Assembly (NCBI GenBank): GCA_963082975.1
Contig: OY720348.1
Location: 60,735,461-60,799,460, forward strand
Reading direction: 5' to 3'
Length of the DNA stretch: 64,000 bases
Origin: Labia minor
Taxonomy: Eukaryota > Arthropoda > Insecta > Dermaptera > Spongiphoridae
The notes beneath the pieces were generated by a model. It was not told the DNA's origin, made no database searches, and saw nothing but the letters and a program-made list of their open reading frames with translations. The translations under genes and the position numbers were made by a program. Within the stretch, counting starts at the first letter, position 1. The number at the start of each line of letters is the position of its first letter. This document shows positions 55,444 through 64,000 of the stretch, piece after piece.

Positions 55444-55821
55444 CTAGATCCTTTTTTTGAACAATGGTTTTTTCATTTTTTTAATATTCCAATTCCTTCA
55501 GGGTAAATCTCAACCCCTTATTTTTAACTTTCAATTCAAAAAATAAAACATTTCCAATAATAATTTTTCTTTTTTTTTTCTTTTAAATCATTTACAAAAA
55601 TGTATATTTTTATATTAAATTATTTCTAATTAACAAAAAACATCAATTAAAGAACTCTTATATAATAATTATAATATATATAAAGTATATGAAGTGGAAA
55701 TAGTGAAATGGGATAAAGAATAATATTTAATAATTAGAAATGAAATTTGGTTGAAATTGGATGAAAAATATAGAAATTATATTGATAAATATGTAAAGCG
55801 GGTGGAAAGTGGGTGGTGAAT
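55444..55821 (+). repeat. Terminal truncated unit U33: E/D hybrid with a cut module
   Basis: It starts as E (ctagatcctttttttgaac) and quickly switches to D-type sequence (ttaatattcc, aaatcattt, ctaattaac). It carries only the first ~159 bp of the module (55663-55821), which breaks off after gggtggtgaat, just before the CpG run. Confidence 0.9.
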
Positions 55822-55966
55822 TTCGAAAAACTTTACAATTTTGTTGAAAAAATGTCTAAATATTTCATCAAATTTCAAATAAGTTTTATTTCTAATCATT
55901 AAATAATATTTATATCCTATTTCACTATTTCAATTTTATTTACTTATACGATATTTATTATTATTA
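55663..55966. repeat. Fold-back (inverted repeat) at the array boundary
   Basis: The module start at 55,663-55,799 is followed, after about 35 bp, by its diverged reverse complement at about 55,833-55,966. Matching blocks include atttctaatcattaaataat, tatttcatcaaatttca and cctatttcactattt against the complement of the module. The array thus ends at a palindromic junction. Confidence 0.8.
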
Positions 55967-56240
55967 ATTACCTCTTCCTTCTGATTCTCTGTTGTCTCAG
56001 CATCTTTATGTATCTTTTCTTAATTTATTAAAATATTATTTAATTTCTATTTTTTTATCATATCAATTAATTTAGTATATAAGAATAAAAATGTTTATCT
56101 CATCTATAATTTTTATCTCTTTCTCTCTCTCACTCTCTAAGACAAAATTTTTATTTCTAGATTATGCTTGTTTTATTTATATTTATAAGTTAATATATTA
56201 TACATCGATATTATTTAATCAAATTTTGTTTTTTATTTAA
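55822..56240 (-). repeat. Dispersed-repeat copy, inverted: I, X and following segments
   Basis: After the inverted module fragment comes gattctctgttgtctcagca (near 55,983-56,002), matching the complement of tgctgagtcaacagagaatc near 60,461-60,480. Next is atcaattaatttagtatat, matching the complement of 60,400-60,420. Then a CT-rich tract and tagattatgc...ataagtt match the complement of 62,000-62,075. No coding potential is seen. Confidence 0.75.
56150..56215 (-). other. Paralogous empty site of the downstream SINE insertion
   Basis: Read on the complementary strand this stretch gives attaacttataaatataaat, then aacaagcataatctagaaat. It corresponds to the two sides of the SINE at 61,816-61,997, with no SINE present. 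Confidence 0.75.
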
Positions 56241-56445
56241 ACAGGGTTGTCAAAAAAAATAACAATTGAAATCTCCCATGAACCTTGTATTAAAAACACA
56301 ATCATCCTACATTTTCTTATCAGCATCTCAGTTCTTCTTTTTAGATATCTAATAATTAATAATAAAAATGAAAATCTCAACTCTCATTTAATTTTATTTA
56401 TTTATTTATTTTTTTTTATTCCTATCTATCTATCTGTCTATAACT
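56240..56445 (+). repeat. P segment, copy 1
   Basis: Contains gaaatctcccatgaac, catcctacattttcttatc and aaaatgaaaatctcaactct. It is the reverse complement of 61,540-61,770 with substitutions and small indels, and is partly repeated directly at 56,574-56,672. A 122-codon frame here starts at TTG and is low-complexity F/I/Y-rich sequence, so I do not call a gene. Confidence 0.75.
56423..56442 (+). repeat. Short CTAT/CTGT microsatellite
   Basis: ctatctatctatctgtctat, an imperfect tetranucleotide run. A related TAGA run occurs at 59,980-59,994 on the opposite orientation of the same repeat family. Confidence 0.7.
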
Positions 56446-56501
56446 TTTATTTATTCTATCTATTCTATATGCTATTTTTATTTTTCTGGCATAATTCAAT
56501 T

Positions 56502-56502
<1 letters not shown>

Positions 56503-56555
<53 letters not shown>
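56503..56555. repeat. (TA)n microsatellite, about 26 units
   Basis: Uninterrupted TA dinucleotide run. It lies between segments P and R, where the other copies also carry simple repeats, so the microsatellite appears to be an internal part of the dispersed element. Confidence 0.95.
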
Positions 56556-56559
<4 letters not shown>

Positions 56560-56573
56560 TGTTTTTTTATCTA

Positions 56574-56672
56574 AAGTGTGTAAATATAGGGTTGTTTAGA
56601 AAAAAGAACATTTAAATTTCCCATGAACCCGTATTAAAAACTCAATCATCCTACATTTTCTTATCAGCATCA
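56574..56672 (+). repeat. P segment, partial copy 2
   Basis: Starts gtgtaaatatagggttg and contains tttcccatgaaccc and catcctacattttcttatc, then breaks at tatcagcat into ...aaggaatagaaattt of segment R. Its first part matches the complement of 61,715-61,760 better than P copy 1 does. Confidence 0.7.
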
Positions 56673-56682
56673 TATATATAAG

Positions 56683-57050
56683 GAATAGAAATTTAAAAGG
56701 AAAGGATAGGAAATTTAACTTCAAATAAAAACATCATAATTATTTACATTTGTTTATTTTATTTGTATTTTTTCAAAAATTAAAACAAGTTACATATTAT
56801 AATTATATATAAATAATTACAATAACAAATACAATAAATACAATAAATAAATACATAAAAATAAAAATTGATGGATATTTCTTGAAAGATCTCATCTTGC
56901 CTTCTTTTTCTACTTTCTTATTGATGTATGGAGTTATCTTTCTGAAAAAATTAAAAAATAAAATTAGATCTATTTTAGTTAAGTATATTAAAGATATAAA
57001 TTATTAAAAAATAAAATTTAAAATCTCAATTCTCAAATCTCATTATTATA
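56683..57050 (-). repeat. R segment, copy 1
   Basis: Begins aaggaaaggatagg. On the complementary strand it contains ttttttcagaaagataact, followed by an open stretch reading FFRKITPYINKKVEKEG. Copies 2 and 3 lie at 58,016-58,370 (same orientation) and 59,575-59,957 (opposite). The tttttcag before the conserved stretch resembles a splice acceptor (inference). Confidence 0.75.
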
Positions 57051-57380
57051 ATAAATAACTAATTAACTATGTAAGAATGACTTTAATTTGAAACTTTAAA
57101 AGAAAATATTTTTGAAAACATAACTCTTGTTTTATTATTATTTAATTTAAATATTTAAATAATTTGAATCCACTTTAAAGAAAAAAATAAAATAAATTCT
57201 AGGGATGATTTTAGAAAACATTCTATTTTCATTTTATGTAAATTGAAATATTATTTTTTTAAAAATTATGCTGTAAAAATGTTTTCCTTTTAAAAATTGA
57301 AAGTTAAAATAATTAAAATTTTAAAAGTTATACTGATTGCATAATACACTTAATCCTGGAACTAAAAACTTAATGGATAA
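57051..57380. other. AT-rich stretch with no recognised feature
   Basis: Poly-A/T-rich low-complexity sequence without long frames or repeats that I could match elsewhere in the window. Confidence 0.6.
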
Positions 57381-57475
57381 ATTAATTAATGTTTTTATAT
57401 AGATAAACCGTCAAAAAATCGTCAACAAACCTGTTAGTTTTCAACGATTCAAATATACTTTAAATAATATATAAA
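57381..57475 (+). repeat. T segment, copy 1
   Basis: attaatgtttttata, then gataaaccgtcaaaaaatcg and ttttcaacgattcaaatata; matched by 58,761-58,920 with substitutions and an internal length difference. Confidence 0.65.
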
Positions 57476-57785
57476 ATCTAAATTATTTTTGTATTTATCC
57501 AAATATTAGATGTTTAATAAAAAAGACAATCTAATAGATGAAAAAATAAAGAATAGTAATAATATAACATAATATAAAAAGAAATCTAATTTAAATTGAA
57601 TAAGTATTAAAATAATTGATATACAAGTATAATTGATTGACATTTAATATTTGCTATTATTAAAATAATAAATTGATTTCTTTTCAAATTATTTTATTTG
57701 TTTCAATAACAAAAGAAGAGAATTATCGGATTAGAATTGTAATATTATCTTTTTTCTATTTAAGCTGAAGTGAGATCTTTCACTC
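57476..57785. other. AT-rich stretch with no recognised feature
   Basis: No frame, tRNA-like structure or clear repeat partner seen. Confidence 0.55.
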
Positions 57786-57890
57786 ATTCTGACAAGAACT
57801 CTCAAGGAAGCAATATCTCCAATCGAATACTCATGGATAATAACATTCAAATATTATAGTTTCAGATTATTGAATCAAATTTTATTTTTA
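57786..57890 (+). repeat. S segment, copy 1
   Basis: tgacaagaactctcaagga, atatctccaatcgaatactc and ttattgaatcaaatttt recur in diverged form at 58,380-58,484. Confidence 0.6.
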
Positions 57891-58015
57891 ATAATTCTAT
57901 TACATCTTATTTATACAGAGGTCTATAGAAATACATAAAATTACATACATTTTGATTATTGATTTTAATTCTAATTTATACTGGTAAATATATATATATT
58001 GAGTATATATGATGA

Positions 58016-58370
58016 ATAGGAGTATAAAAGGAAAGGATAGGAATTTTTACTTCAAATTAAAACTTCATAGTTATTTAAATTTTTTTGTTTTATTATTAGC
58101 AGTAATTCACAAATTACAGAAAAAGTTACATATGATAATTATACATAAATAAATAGATAAAAAATTCATCAATGCTTTTTGAAAGATTCCCCTTCTTCTT
58201 TCTCACCGATATACGGAGCTATCTTTCTGAAAAATGAAAAATTAATATTAGTCCAATTTTTATTAAGTATATTAAATATATCAATTTTTTCGGAAAAATT
58301 AAATAAAAAAATAACTAAAAAAATCATAATAAAATATTTTGAAATCTCATTGAAATAATAAATATATAAT
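58016..58370 (-). repeat. R segment, copy 2
   Basis: Same orientation as copy 1. The complementary strand carries tttttcagaaagatagctcc, open as FFRKIAPYIGEKEEGESFKK and then a stop. Compared with copy 1 the length difference inside this stretch is 12 bases, which keeps the frame. A 68-codon minus-strand frame spans it, but its upstream part is low-complexity and I do not call a gene. Confidence 0.75.
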
Positions 58371-58379
58371 CTCAAGGAA

Positions 58380-58484
58380 GCAACACTTTGACAAGAAATG
58401 GTTCGGAAACAACATCTCCAATCAAAAACCCATGAATAACACTATAAAAATTTTATACCCACCATTGAATCAAAAATTTAGAGA
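58380..58484 (+). repeat. S segment, copy 2
   Basis: tttgacaagaaatgg, acaacatctccaatcaaaaa and ccattgaatcaaaaattt align with 57,786-57,890. The S copy follows R directly here but precedes it in copy 1, so the segments have been rearranged. Confidence 0.6.
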
Positions 58485-58920: not shown

Positions 58921-59150
58921 TAAAATAATTATTTAATTATACAAAGACAAGGGAAGATACAAATCTCATTGAAAAAAGTGATCAAATATCGAAAAATGTT
59001 ACCAAAAATATATTATTTCATTAAAAATAATAATTTACATAGTAGATACTCCGAAAAAAGTCAGTGAAAGAAGTCTTGCAAGATTTAACAAACACCCTTC
59101 CCATTTATTTATAAAAACACTCCAATTTTTTCACTAATACACCTTAAAAG
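58921..59150. other. AT-rich stretch with no recognised feature
   Basis: No frame or repeat partner seen. Confidence 0.5.
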
Positions 59151-59415
59151 AAAAGTCGTTGAGCCAACGTGTTCATATGTATGGAAATATCTATGGAAAT
59201 ATGAAAAAACAATGAAAATTCTTTAAAAAGTTTTGCCATACATTTTACAAAAACGTCCGACTCCAAGTAGGAGTAATAGGTTGCCTATATGCAAGGCGCA
59301 ATAAAAAAAATAAAAAAGTCAACGAATGTTTTCATGTGTAAAGAAAAATCTTTTTTCAAAAAACAATAAAAATTCTTTAAAACTTTTTGCCATACATTTT
59401 AAAAAAACATATATC
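59150..59415 (+). repeat. Two-copy tandem repeat, period about 154 bp
   Basis: aaaaaacaatgaaaattctt and ttttgccatacattttacaa near 59,203-59,250 recur as aaaaaacaataaaaattctt and tttgccatacattttaaaa near 59,358-59,404. Between them lies taggttgcctatatgcaagg, which resembles the hairpin region of the satellite module. Confidence 0.7.
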
Positions 59416-59574
59416 TTCTAGGCTGGTGTTAGACTTTAGATGTTAAATTATGAATTTGGAAAATCCTAATAATTTTCAATTTTCTACCAACTAAAAGTAA
59501 GTTTTTCATAACGAATATTTTTGAATTTTTTATTAAAATATTATATTTCATCAATTTTTTCCATTAAGTTTTTT
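59416..59574. other. AT-rich stretch with no recognised feature
   Basis: Contains ctaggctggtgttagac but nothing I can classify. Confidence 0.5.
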
Positions 59575-59957
59575 CATATTATTTAATTTATTTATTTATT
59601 ATTTCAATGAAATATCAAAATATTTTATTATCATAATAATTATTTTTTTTTATATTTTCTAAAAATTTATATATTTAATATACTTGGACTAATCTTAATT
59701 ATTGGTTTTTCAGAAAGATAACTTCATACATTAATGAGAAAAAAGAATGAAGAAAAAGAAGGGGAAGATGGAATCTTTCAAGAAATATTGATTGAATTTT
59801 TATTTATTTATTTATTTATTTATAACTATCATATGTAACTTTCTGTAATTTGTGAATTGCTAATAATAATAATAAAGCAAACAAATATAAATAATTATGA
59901 AGTTTTAAATTGAAATTAAAATTCCTATCCTTTCCTTTTATATTATTCTCTTCATCA
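59575..59957 (+). repeat. R segment, copy 3 (inverted relative to copies 1 and 2)
   Basis: Reverse complement of copies 1 and 2, ending tcctatcctttcctttta. It contains ggtttttcagaaagataact; the open stretch reads FFRKITSYINEKKE and is then stopped by TGA, with a frame-breaking length difference. With copy 2 it forms an inverted pair with arms of about 350 bp and a loop of about 1.2 kb. A 76-codon minus-strand frame at 59,816-60,046 is low-complexity and not called. Confidence 0.75.
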
Positions 59958-59971
59958 AATAAACTCAATAG

Positions 59972-59996
59972 ATATATATATAGATAGATAGATATA
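59972..59996. repeat. TA/TAGA microsatellite
   Basis: atatatatatagatagatagatata between segments R and Q, in the same relative place as the (TA)n run at 56,503. Confidence 0.85.
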
Positions 59997-60344
59997 CCAG
60001 TATAAAGAAAATAGATGCAAATAGAAATAGAAAGAGAAAATATCAAAATAATAAATTATAGGTCATCTAATAATTGAAGTATATATTCAAAGAAAAATAA
60101 ATAGTACGTATATACATCTAGGTAAATAGAATATAGGAGAGACTAAAATACCATATATATCATGTAGTATAAAAACAAGATGAAGGAAAATTTGAAAATT
60201 AATAAAAATGAAAGATGAGATTTTCATTTTTATTATTTCATTTTTATTTAATTTGATAAAAGTTTCAAACTGATAAGAAAAAATAAATAAAGTTACGAAA
60301 AGAAAGGTTCAAATGAGACTAATAGTATTAGATTAAGACTATTT
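59994..60344 (+). repeat. Q segment, copy 1 (direct repeat)
   Basis: Runs from ataccagtataaagaaaat to gattaagactattt. Repeated directly at 61,048-61,392 with scattered substitutions and small indels. Its distal part (aaatgagattttcattttta, ctgataagaaaa) is related to the complement of segment P. Confidence 0.85.
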
Positions 60345-60504
60345 AATTATATTATTTATTTATATTATATTTAAAGATGAGATATACGTTTTTATTATTA
60401 ATATATACTAAATTAATTGATGTAAAAAAGAAAAGATGCTAGAAAGAAAAGACTCATAAGATGCTGAGTCAACAGAGAATCATAAGAAAGGTGATCAATA
60501 AGAT
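60345..60504 (+). repeat. X segment
   Basis: Contains gagatatacgtttttatta, actaaattaattgatgt and tgctgagtcaacagagaatc. Its reverse complement is seen at about 55,970-56,110, so the order Q-X-I here is a mirrored equivalent of I-X-P by the array boundary. Confidence 0.7.
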
Positions 60505-60895
60505 TAATAATATATTGAAATTTATAATATATATAAGTAAATGAAGCTGAAATAGAGAATTGCGATAAAGAATAATATTTAATAATTAGAAATGAAATTT
60601 GGTTGAAATCGGATGAAAAATATAGAAATTATGAGGATAAATATGAAAAGCGGGTGGAAAGTGGGTGGTAAATGCGCGCGTGCAGCCGTAGGTCTAATTG
60701 CCTAACTTCAAGGGGCAAAGTAAAAAAATGACTTTTTCTATGAAAAACTCTTATGAAATTTTATAACAATCAACCCCTATTTTTGATCATTGGATATTGT
60801 TTTAACTGATATTGCTGACGTGGGGTGTACTCAATAGGGGGGATAAAAATTTCATCCATTTTGCTCTAACTCACCCCTAAATACGTTTTTTCTTA
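60505..60895 (+). repeat. Diverged stand-alone copy of the satellite module (I)
   Basis: Matches the array module nearly end to end. Nearly unchanged blocks are 60,563-60,631 (one difference seen, ggttgaaatcgg), gcgggtggaaagtgggtgg (60,650-60,668), aatgcgcgcg, gcagccgtag, ttttataacaatcaacccct and ttcatccattttgctctaa. Differences such as atgaggataaatatgaaaag and gacgtggggtgtactc show it is not a recent array copy. The 61-codon frame of array copies is interrupted here. Confidence 0.9.
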
Positions 60896-61040
60896 GAAAC
60901 ACACCCTTTTTTCAATTTATTAAATTTGCTCTTAGATATGATTTAATTAATTCCATTATCTATCGTTCAATCTTATCTAGGTTCTTATCTTTGAACAAAG
61001 GTTTTTTCATTTTTTTAAAATTCCAATTCCTTCAGGGTAT
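60896..61040 (+). repeat. Diverged fragment of the satellite monomer joined to the module
   Basis: Continues as in the array: acacccttttttcaattt, ttaattccattatctatcg, ttcaatcttatctaggttc, gaacaaaggttttttc, and stops at ttccttcagggta. It is E-like (gaacaaaggttt) but has ctaggttcttatc, intermediate between E and A. It then joins segment Q at 61,048. Confidence 0.88.
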
Positions 61041-61047
61041 AATGTTT

Positions 61048-61392
61048 ATACCAGTATAAAGAAAATAGATGCAAAAATAAAAATAGAAAGAGAAAATACC
61101 AAAATAATAAATTATAGGTCATCTAATAATTGAACTATAGAGAAATAAATAGTAAGAATATACATCTAGGTAAATAGAATATAGGAGAGACTAAATTACA
61201 ATATATATCATGTAGTATAAAAACAAGATGAAGAAAAATTAGAAAATTAATAAAAATGAAAGATGAGATTTTCATTTTTATTATTTCATAGATATTTAAT
61301 TTGATAAAAAAATCAAACTGATAAGAAAAAAAAAATAAAGTTAAGAAAAGTTAGGTTCAAATGAGACTAATAGTATTAGATTAAGAATATTT
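61048..61392 (+). repeat. Q segment, copy 2 (direct repeat)
   Basis: Second copy of 59,994-60,344; the offset of about 1,054 bp defines a short tandem unit Q-X-I-monomer start. Confidence 0.85.
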
Positions 61393-61539
61393 CGTTTTTT
61401 TTAAAAATTAATGAAAACCAACTTTTATATTTAAGTTTTAATTTAAATTTCTACTTTACATATTAATCTATACGATTATATTTTTGAATAAATCATGCTT
61501 GAAAAATAAAAATCTCATCTCTCATTTTTATTATTATAT
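61393..61539. other. AT-rich stretch between repeat segments
   Basis: Contains aaaaatctcatctctcattt near 61,508, a further degenerate P/Q-like piece, otherwise nothing recognised. Confidence 0.5.
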
Positions 61540-61800
61540 TTAAATTAATAAGATATATTCTTTTTTTTTATTCCTATCTATTCTTATTTTAATAATAAAA
61601 ATGAGAGATGAGATTTTAATTTGTATTATTAATTATTATAGATCTAAAAAATAGAGGCGAAATGCTGATAAGAAAATGTAGGATTATTGTATTATTAATA
61701 CAATAAGTTTATGGGAGATTTCATTTGTTCTTTTCTATACATCCGATATTTACACCCTTTAAATAAAATACAAAATTAATTTTAAAATTATTGTTGTATT
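61540..61800 (-). repeat. P segment, inverted copy
   Basis: Complement of 56,222-56,445: gctgataagaaaatgtagg, tatgggagatttcatttg and ctttaaataaaatacaaaat correspond to the complement of cctacattttcttatcagc, gaaatctcccatgaac and ttttgttttttatttaaa. Confidence 0.75.
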
Positions 61801-61815
61801 AACTTATAAAAAAAA
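61801..61815 (+). repeat. SINE target-site duplication, left
   Basis: aacttataaaaaaaa, identical to 61,998-62,012. Confidence 0.85.
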
Positions 61816-61997
61816 CCGGGAGCTTAGCCGCGAGGTTATAGTGACCGGTCCGCCGACTCGAGTTCGAGTGTTCAAACCTCGCTGAGTGCATCGATATATA
61901 AATCGATATATATAAGTATAGATATAAGAATAATAAAGAAGGCTGGCTAAAATGGTGATAATCCGAAAGCCAAATAAATAAAATAAAAAAAAAAAAA
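61816..61997 (+). mobile_element. tRNA-related SINE with poly(A) tail
   Basis: The head ccgggagcttagccgcgagg carries an A-box-like tagccgcgagg at 61,825-61,835. A B-box-like gttcgagtg lies at 61,862-61,870, at the spacing usual for RNA polymerase III internal promoters. A middle part with tcgatatataaatcgatat is followed by a tail with gaaggctggctaaaatgg, gataatccgaaagcc and an A-rich end. Flanking 15-bp perfect direct repeats show target-primed insertion. The surroundings are a repeat segment whose paralogue at 56,150-56,215 lacks the insertion. SINEs encode no protein and depend on a LINE partner; the family name is not known to me. The minus-strand frame across it is not a gene. Confidence 0.85.
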
Positions 61998-62012
61998 AAC
62001 TTATAAAAAAAA
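61998..62012 (+). repeat. SINE target-site duplication, right
   Basis: aacttataaaaaaaa, followed by gcataatctagaaat, which resumes the interrupted repeat segment. Confidence 0.85.
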
Positions 62013-62075
62013 GCATAATCTAGAAATAATTATTTGAAGTTAGAGTTTGTAAGAGAGAGAGAGATTTAAAAATTA
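62013..62075 (-). repeat. Continuation of the inverted dispersed-repeat copy after the SINE
   Basis: gcataatctagaaataatt and the agagagagagaga tract correspond to the complement of 56,100-56,170. Confidence 0.65.
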
Positions 62076-62640
62076 AAAATGAAATTATATTTTGCGTAAT
62101 ACATAAACACACACACAGACATTTTTCACAACTTTAAAGAAAATGATTCAGGAACTTTGAAAACGTATAAAAACATCAAAATCACGATATCGAAATATTA
62201 TCTCTGGCGAGATAGTAAAGATTGTGGTGATTATAATTAAAACCATTACAGATTATTTCACTATTAAAACAATCATGATTGTTCGTAAAATAAATATGAA
62301 ACGTATGAAAAGAAAATTTAGGTAAATATTTTTTGTATATATATATACAAAAGCCAAAGTTTTTAAATTCATTAATTTTATGCGAATTATTGATAGAATT
62401 AGTAAATATATAGTCATTATAAGATATGTTTTTAATCATAAATATTCTAATCTTGATTGGTTGGTAGGTGACGAAAGGACATATTCGATCGATACGAGAC
62501 CCGATTACCTAACTCACTTCAATTTTGAATTTTCGCGGACTGTGTACATTCGATTATCGAATTTTTTTTTTTGTTATGTTGATACACATAAGTTTCTCAT
62601 ATGTTGACATTATCAGCCATTAAGGATTAGTAGTTTGTCG
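62076..62640. other. Higher-complexity unique sequence without a supported gene
   Basis: Base composition is less extreme than in the neighbouring DNA. A 75-codon ATG frame on the plus strand (62,380-62,607) and an overlapping 85-codon frame on the minus strand exist; neither shows a motif, signal peptide or family I recognise. A short cacacacaca run lies near 62,106, and a TA run near 62,335. Confidence 0.5.
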
Positions 62641-62749
62641 ATGAAAAGTGAAAAAGATAGTCACGTTTTTGTATGTTTGGTAAATGTTTAATTTGATGTA
62701 TGTATAATGGATTTTGATAAAAGTTTTAAAATTATTACTAACTATAAAT

Positions 62750-63030
62750 AATCACCTACTGGTTGGAAAATTCAAGCGCAGCGGTGAAGGTGCCACGTTC
62801 TGCTGGGCGAATCAATAAATTCAATAGAAAATGGCGAAAAATTCACCTTTTATAAGTACTGTATGTGTCAAATTTTTATAACTTTTATCTGGTAAACTAG
62901 AAGCGACCGCCTCATACTACTTAAGGAAAGTTTGTTTGGAATCAAAAAAGGAATATACTGGTAAAGTTTTGTCAAAATCAAATCCATAATACATACGTTA
63001 AACTGAACAATTAACAAAAAATTCAAAATG
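62750..63030 (+). repeat. Possible tail of a dispersed element
   Basis: Locally G/C-richer, with aagcgcagcggtgaaggtgc, gaagcgaccgcctcatac and then gtaaagttttgtcaaaatca. Phrases of the last kind are frequent near the ends of arthropod transposable elements. No second copy, terminal repeat or coding frame is in the window, so this is a weak call. Confidence 0.3.
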
Positions 63031-63141
63031 CTCATCTCGTGTAAGAATTAAAAAATAAGAATATTTATAAAATTTCTTAAAAATTATAATAAGGACTTTT
63101 ATAAAGTTTCTTTTTTATTTACAATTATAGACTAGTAAAAA

Positions 63142-63270
63142 GAAGAATCATTAGAGATAATTTAGGCTTGTGTAAATAAATAATAAATAAACTAACATGA
63201 ATAATAAAATGATTGGATTCTTAAATTTAATAGATAATTAGTAAAATTGTATTTATTAATAGAACAAATA
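63142..63270 (+). repeat. Direct repeat, copy 1 (partner at 63,877-64,000)
   Basis: agaatcattagagat, taataaataaactaacatga, ggattcttaaatttaatag and tgtatttattaatagaac recur about 730 bp downstream with few changes. Confidence 0.75.
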
Positions 63271-63876
63271 AAATAGTAAATATAAATATTAAATTAAATA
63301 AATCATATTTTTATTGATTTAAACTATAATTTGAGCTATAAAGTATATAAGATGTATTCAAAGAAAATCTTATTTTCATTATTAAGTCTATTTTTGAAAT
63401 ATTATGTATTAATAAATGTCTTGCTAAATGTGATACTTGATTAAATTTAATTTCTCAATAATTGCATTCATAAGGTTTTTCTCTTGTAATAAATTAATGA
63501 TTGTGTCTTCTGATTAAATTTAGTTAAAAATAGTTTATAAATATAAAAATAAAAAAAATTATTCTATAAATATAAAAAAATATTATTTTGAATAGGATTA
63601 AATGTTATTTGAATAAAAATTAAATATTTTTATAATTCGAATTATATATTTTATAAAAAAATATTAATATATTATTGAATATATATCCTTATAAGAAGAT
63701 GTATTCAAGAACAGTGTTTAGTTGTTTTTTAATTATTCAACCTGTATCTATTCACACACAGATATATTCTATTATTAATATTAACAGTAAAATATTTTAT
63801 AAAAAATTAATATGTTTTATTAATAAATAAATTTCTGTTTATAACTATGAAGAAGTCATTGGATTTAACCACAATC

Positions 63877-64000
63877 CAAAGAATCATTAGAAATATTGTA
63901 TAAATAATTAATAAATAAACTAACATGGATAATAAAATGAAAGGATTCTTAAATGTAATAGATAATTAGTAATAATGTATTTATTAATGAACCAAATAAT
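63877..64000 (+). repeat. Direct repeat, copy 2, cut by the window end
   Basis: agaatcattagaaat, taataaataaactaacatgg, ggattcttaaatgtaatag and tgtatttattaatgaacc. Similarity continues to the last base, so a tandem unit of about 728 bp may continue beyond the window. Confidence 0.72.

Follow-up and report, generated by a model that had tools for sequence, protein, structure and literature searches.

A satellite array of Labia minor and its probable origin from part of a dispersed repeat

The array and the seed copy beside it

The stretch of DNA analysed here (the window) comprises 64,000 nucleotides of Labia minor, positions 60,735,461-60,799,460 of contig OY720348.1 (C10) in assembly GCA_963082975.1 (604 Mb, AT-rich, 71 contigs). 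Most of it is occupied by a satellite array composed of a module (M) of ~380 bp and of 301-bp monomers (mo); outside this array, 4.7 kb from its edge, lies another module joined to the start of a monomer, called the seed copy below, which is related to a repeat dispersed over several contigs. The array spans C10:60,729,134-60,791,281 (62.1 kb), with 55.8 kb inside the window; C10:60,730,001-60,735,460 was read as one 0.5-kb sample overlapping the first bases of this interval. Long, head-to-tail and homogeneous as is typical of a satellite, the window array contains 33 full modules and one truncated, spaced by 979-2,181 bp that are filled by 301-bp monomers, and five array module rows of the alignment are 99.2-100% identical to one reference array module. 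A tRNA scan and an Rfam scan gave no matches.

An initial annotation, made from the letters alone, had described a module and a monomer start joined outside the array and proposed this copy as the seed of the satellite. The junction was confirmed by a BLAST comparison of 59,400-62,200 with the window, in which 60,522-61,039 (module plus 143 bp of monomer) matched the array module+monomer units at 89-90% identity (E=0), the monomer part alone being 81-84% identical to ordinary array monomers. The module, announced at 60,505-60,895, is present, with a match that begins at 60,522 and not at 60,505. Its leftward continuation into X, a sequence that the array copies lack, was also recovered when the window was compared with itself. 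As for the short tandem with a period of about 1,054 bp, the two Q segments are 91.2% identical and do start 1,054 bp apart, but they enclose a single X-M-monomer unit and no multi-copy tandem is formed. A long terminal repeat (LTR) or terminal-repeat retrotransposon in miniature (TRIM) reading of the two Q segments was rejected: TG...CA ends were not seen, and Q also occurs between P and R in other loci (L021/L047, L042). No significant score was obtained for an ancient duplication linking module to monomer (local score 14, shuffle mean 15.4) or for a likeness of 59,040-59,420 to the module (score 15; shuffle mean 12.2, maximum 18).

The block around the seed copy (Table 1) is duplicated at C10:60.82 and 60.84 Mb (94-98%, colinear apart from indels) and in part at C10:60.94 Mb (94-96%) and 60.65 Mb (83-93%). 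Since the likeness of the four relatives extends past the repeat into its flanks, they are segmental duplicates. Among the best candidates, the Q-X-M-monomer-Q arrangement was seen only in these four duplicates, within 0.29 Mb. Array sequence was present in 1 of 20 samples of 500 bp taken around the region, namely the sample adjoining the left end of the array. Inside the block, 61,816-61,998 is an insert missing from the 60.82-Mb duplicate, where its flanks overlap by ~15 bp in the manner of a target-site duplication (TSD); from its box-like motifs we take it to be a tRNA-like short interspersed nuclear element. A direct repeat (84% identical) links 63,143-63,271 and 63,879-63,999 of the window.

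Table 1. Features of the window (positions counted from its first letter)
Feature	Position	Strand	Remark
Right part of the 62.1-kb satellite array	1-55821	+	module M ~380 bp + 301-bp monomers
Last array module, truncated, right edge	55669-55821	+	
Old X + module start	55851-56109	-	71% identical, inverted against array edge
R-type segment, old family	56182-56389	-	
Second R-type segment, old family	56554-56670	-	
P segment, old family copy	56675-57024	-	
P segment, old family copy	57985-58369	-	
Segmentally duplicated block	59433-63388	+	right limit = end of stretch compared
P segment	59588-59982	+	
Q, first copy	59993-60344	+	
X, element sequence upstream of module, not in arrays	60345-60521	+	
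Module M, seed-type	60522-60896	+	
First 143 bp of E-type (post-module) monomer	60897-61039	+	
Q, second copy	61047-61392	+	
R-type segment after second Q	61599-61810	+	

Anatomy and distribution of the dispersed repeat

Searching the genome with the seed stretch (best 9 of 362 candidates scored) returned the local copies at C10:60.65-60.94 Mb (93-98%), copies of 85% identity on C9 and at C10:35.25 Mb, and the arrays at C10:62.83 and 68.24 Mb. With the C9 copy as query (best 38 of 429 candidates scored), 123 matches were obtained, all on C10 except places on C4, C5 and C9. Array-free copies lie on C4, C5, C9 and at C10:35.25 Mb, so that the dispersed copies anticipated by the initial annotation do exist, but not with the consistent ends it had hoped for. 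These copies, together with the position of the seed copy outside the array clade (see below), agree with its view that array and dispersed repeat share an ancestor.

Blocks were annotated in 48 loci plus the window end, several of which overlap (L007/L009/L043, L008/L023/L044, L011/L045). Younger copies have the order Lf-R-X-M-mo-mo-Z and older copies the order P-R-X-Z, their blocks showing roughly 67-83% identity to those of younger copies. On C4, an old copy passes from the first ~110 bp of M directly into Z, without M3' or monomer, and in two further old copies (C10:62.83 and 68.25 Mb) the gap from X to Z is 183 and 218 bp. Since the start of M goes straight into Z in the old C4 copy, M is, on this comparison, composite: its start is old element sequence, and the remainder would have arrived or evolved later.

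In several copies, M from ~base 79 and the monomers are found again, inverted, beyond LL/Lf. The two arms are 97.2% (monomer) and 94.1% (M) identical in L044 and 94.7% in L016, around an LL/Lf-R interior. As in foldback elements, long inverted arms flank a middle region and carry tandem repeats, here 1-2 monomers per arm in the element copies. On their outer sides, one arm continues into Z and the other into S, with no constant end. Two other candidates for two-arm copies were discarded: the inverted pair of L048 (93.6%) joins two neighbouring copies, and that of L012 (99.6%) flanks the Z-S side, from which no arm identity was taken. At C10:13.48, 14.41-14.44 and 66.28-66.30 Mb, units of ~3.1-3.7 kb, each an inverted pair of element parts, are repeated in tandem as dyads. 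The repeat is apparently non-coding, judging from the LL-Lf of one copy, which holds only short reading frames. L007 contains two monomers and, in its R block, a GATA-type run, which recall the central repeat and the microsatellite of Helentron-like elements. A Helitron reading was rejected, the A|TC edge of L007 being a truncation through which other copies continue leftwards; a 5' TC, a 3' CTRR and insertion between A and T were not found together. Foreign DNA also lies in or next to some copies. In L044 (C10:35.25 Mb), ~1.7 kb of other DNA splits the element; it begins with what we take to be a mariner-type end, and an integrase-like retroelement frame, recognised by reading, abuts its other end. 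L045:534-1600 (C5:7.76 Mb), presumably a hAT-like end, borders a monomer, and related pieces occur in several loci.

The family appears to be concentrated on C10. When the places from the seed and C9-copy searches were grouped by hand, 15 of 18 clusters were on this contig, which represents 12.7% of the genome (binomial ~2e-11), or 16 of 19 if 60.65 Mb is counted separately (~3e-12); the binomial ignores the preference of the search for best matches, and the enrichment is indicative only. Old copies were searched with 55,851-58,400 of the window (minus strand; best 38 of 690 candidates scored), giving at least 317 matches, all on C10 among the matches listed; a hand-copied set of 42 listed places falls into 20 clusters between 0.98 and 68.4 Mb of C10. 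The large contigs measure, in numbering order, 126.3, 95.4, 86.4, 83.5, 70.8, 60.0 and, for C10, 76.9 Mb (together ~599 of 604 Mb), C10 being out of size order; it is perhaps a sex chromosome placed last in the numbering.

Phylogeny and array edges

A tree of X, M and the first monomer part was computed from 56 distinct rows, with the window array modules thinned to 6 and two old rows, one of them the inverted copy at 55,851-56,109, lying beyond the midpoint root. The seed copies (5 rows, 100/99) are sister to the arrays (20 rows, 100/99) with a support of 97/88, as the initial annotation had predicted in placing the seed outside the array clade, and this joint group stands apart from 29 element rows (85/82). 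Trees of M alone also group seed and arrays apart from the element copies. In a monomer tree built from 99 of the 128 distinct monomers, those of the arrays come together in one group (Shimodaira-Hasegawa-like approximate likelihood-ratio test, 99) on the side of the first monomer of the element. The joint between monomer end and module start differs by no more than single bases among the arrays at 60.7, 62.8 and 68.2 Mb. The tree test is weak alone, because concerted evolution makes arrays look monophyletic whichever direction the sequence moved.

The evidence that weighs most comes from an array edge. The left edge of the window array (L090, C10:60,729,134) lies 6.3 kb left of the window. 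Z-mo-mo, Lf/LL fragments and Lf come first there, and M, entered at base 79, leads into the array; the start of the array lies within the inverted arm of a copy of the element. The first module and monomer of this array contain 42 diagnostic columns: 16 with the element state are followed by 2 with the array state, 7 with the element state and finally 17 with the array state. The element state is thus present at 23 of the first 25 sites and the array state at all 17 that follow; if the two sites in an A-rich run are set aside, there is in essence one homologous switch, located at C10:60,729,359-60,729,419. The physical link of the array to its parent element is at this left edge, outside the window.

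Other arrays have comparable edges. At the start of the 62.83-Mb array, the X tail is identical to that of the seed over 40 nt, including an ATTG insertion missing from five element copies compared, and the sole three-way site (1/1) carries the seed state. Both flanks of the 5.23-Mb array are Lf-R-M-mo copies, the right one accompanied by rearranged pieces, and there the best-block matches pass from element to array type. An arm lies to the left of the 6.07-Mb array, and one hairpin-like junction core occurs four times in the 5.23- and 6.07-Mb loci. Old copies are found 29 bp from the right edge of the window array and 93 bp from that of the 68.24-Mb array. Altogether, five M+monomer arrays were identified (a possible further one at 48.70 Mb was left out), and 7 of the 8 edges covered, out of 10, lie within 93 bp of family copies, against 0 of 39 control stretches with such copies (0/10 on C10 and 0/10 on other chromosomes, 1.5 kb; 0/19 local, 0.5 kb). 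The array at C10:62.83 Mb is itself interrupted by a retrotransposon of ~5.07 kb (L040:1180-6240), apparently BEL/Pao-like from a reading of its frames.

Origin of the satellite and comparison with known systems

Taken together, these data make it probable that the satellite arose by amplification of one part of the dispersed repeat, module M with its first monomer, and that the seed copy is a side branch and not the founder. Comparison of the copies shows old ones, in which P-R-X reach Z within ~220 bp, and a later form with M3' and 1-2 monomers between M5' and Z. M from ~base 79 and the monomers are also present, inverted, beyond the interior, so that the copy resembles a foldback element with arms of M-mo; inverted duplication would have produced this form. 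In one lineage, also parent of the seed copy, a monomer end was joined to a module start, a junction common to the three arrays compared, and repeated tandem duplication, by unequal crossing over or rolling circles, may have produced the M+monomer arrays. Satellite DNA would finally have reached, or expanded within, resident element copies of C10 through homologous recombination in the shared M; one such switch is preserved in the first module of the window array, although its direction is less certain. The seed copy (60,522-61,039) would be a side branch caught within a local segmental duplication. We infer both the element-to-satellite direction and the homologous recombination with resident arms through which the arrays would have arrived where they now lie.

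Several points weigh against this reading. The chimeric module would look alike had a resident arm undergone conversion by array sequence. The module counts at the 62.83-Mb edge are small (states shared by seed and array 3/5, seed-private 0/3, array-private 1/5), restricted as they are to the module because the edge monomer is of another type. No family copy lies within 1.1 kb to the right of the 6.07-Mb array, and the right edge of the window array has no homologous switch. The control stretches were few, were placed at chosen round coordinates and were searched more strictly than the edges. The root of the 56-row tree rests on 2 partial old rows, and its bootstrap had not settled. A 62-row tree with six second monomers places the arrays nearest the root, beside these monomers, whose rows fill ~22% of the columns and include a very long one; they were left out of the 56-row tree, and leaving them out as root favours the element-to-satellite direction. 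The second monomers of L012, L028 and L029, moreover, fall among the first monomers. Across the element copies no consistent outer termini were found, nor any TSD of the 8-10 bp usual for foldback elements in the one copy examined (L044), so that the element is at most a putative transposon.

The lack of a TSD in that copy also speaks for another explanation, a possible one though clearly second to the origin proposed above, in which the repeat was never mobile and spread only through segmental duplications and ectopic exchanges, for the most part along C10, with satellites as one outcome of local churning. The duplicates of the seed locus, the tandem dyad units at 13.48, 14.41 and 66.28 Mb and the restriction of the listed old-family places to C10 are all in agreement with it, whereas the copies on C4, C5 and C9 are easier to obtain by transposition. 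A reverse direction, with the satellite first and M-monomer pieces leaving arrays for resident elements and the seed locus, seems improbable to us. Arrays can shed monomers, the chimeric left-edge module shows array sequence able to enter an element arm, and the root position obtained with second monomers points the same way; yet in the seed copy and the dispersed copies M is attached to X, R and Lf in the order that recurs from copy to copy, X is absent from arrays, and the arrays make up a single clade next to the seed group, with the elements separate from both. In addition, the old C4 copy is already X-M5'-Z, and the first ~110 bp of the module are therefore element sequence. Least credible is the proposal of the initial annotation that the seed copy, or its tandem with Q, itself founded the adjacent array. 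Its sister position and its proximity to the array edge would suit such a role, but it has private states of its own, its monomer is cut at 143 bp and lacks the second half, its four relatives are local segmental duplicates, the 62.8- and 68.2-Mb arrays share the array clade and junction, and the left edge of the window array joins another, Lf-type element.

If the satellite did arise from the dispersed repeat, its case may be of wider use. Satellite origins are usually inferred from similarity alone, whereas here several stages are legible in one assembly: an old element, an element with monomers, an inverted-arm element, a sister lineage still attached to the element, arrays sharing a junction and a chimeric first module. 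Whether satellites grow in place or land by homology becomes a directly testable question. A more speculative, and in our opinion doubtful, extension is that the inverted arms of this largely C10-confined family act as "landing pads", capturing and seeding arrays by homologous crossover until the chromosome has a private satellite network. Such a network, if true, could mark the chromosome for recognition, a role proposed for X-linked satellites elsewhere; with the family concentrated on one chromosome, it could be tested whether networks of this kind go along with sex chromosomes.

Among known systems, Helentron-associated elements (HINE, pearl, Cg_HINE) carry satellite-like central repeats and, in the parts of the accounts consulted, share with the present repeat flanking modules around a short satellite-like array and a tetranucleotide microsatellite in the left part (PMC7492417, PMC4067079). 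The repeat of L. minor differs by its inverted M-mo arms, and its ends are undefined, so that sub-terminal inverted repeats, 3' palindrome and T-rich insertion site are not comparable. The 1.688 / 359-bp satellite of Drosophila, enriched on the X, offers, as far as the consulted text goes, a parallel for related repeats present both in long arrays and in short dispersed arrays and strongly concentrated on one chromosome (PMC7642928); there it is treated as a satellite family and not as the arm of a larger element, and C10 is at most a candidate sex chromosome. The route proposed here resembles that of Tetris, a foldback transposon of Drosophila virilis whose arm repeats became the TIR-220 satellite (PMC4079207). 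According to the portions consulted of that account, the differences are that the satellite unit of L. minor also takes in module M from the inner part of the arm, that neither a TSD (one copy, L044) nor a constant outer flanking domain was found, that the old copies are all on one chromosome among the matches listed, and that an element/array switch occurs within one module at an array edge (PMC4079207). Literature titles and abstract openings yielded no description of such a switch, which does not prove its absence. Membership among foldback transposons is not claimed, because no TSD was seen in the one copy examined. What the two systems have in common is an element, non-coding in Tetris and apparently so here, with long inverted arms, tandem repeats within these arms, many rearranged forms, and arm repeats that also build arrays of kilobase size originating, in L. 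minor probably, inside the element (PMC4079207).
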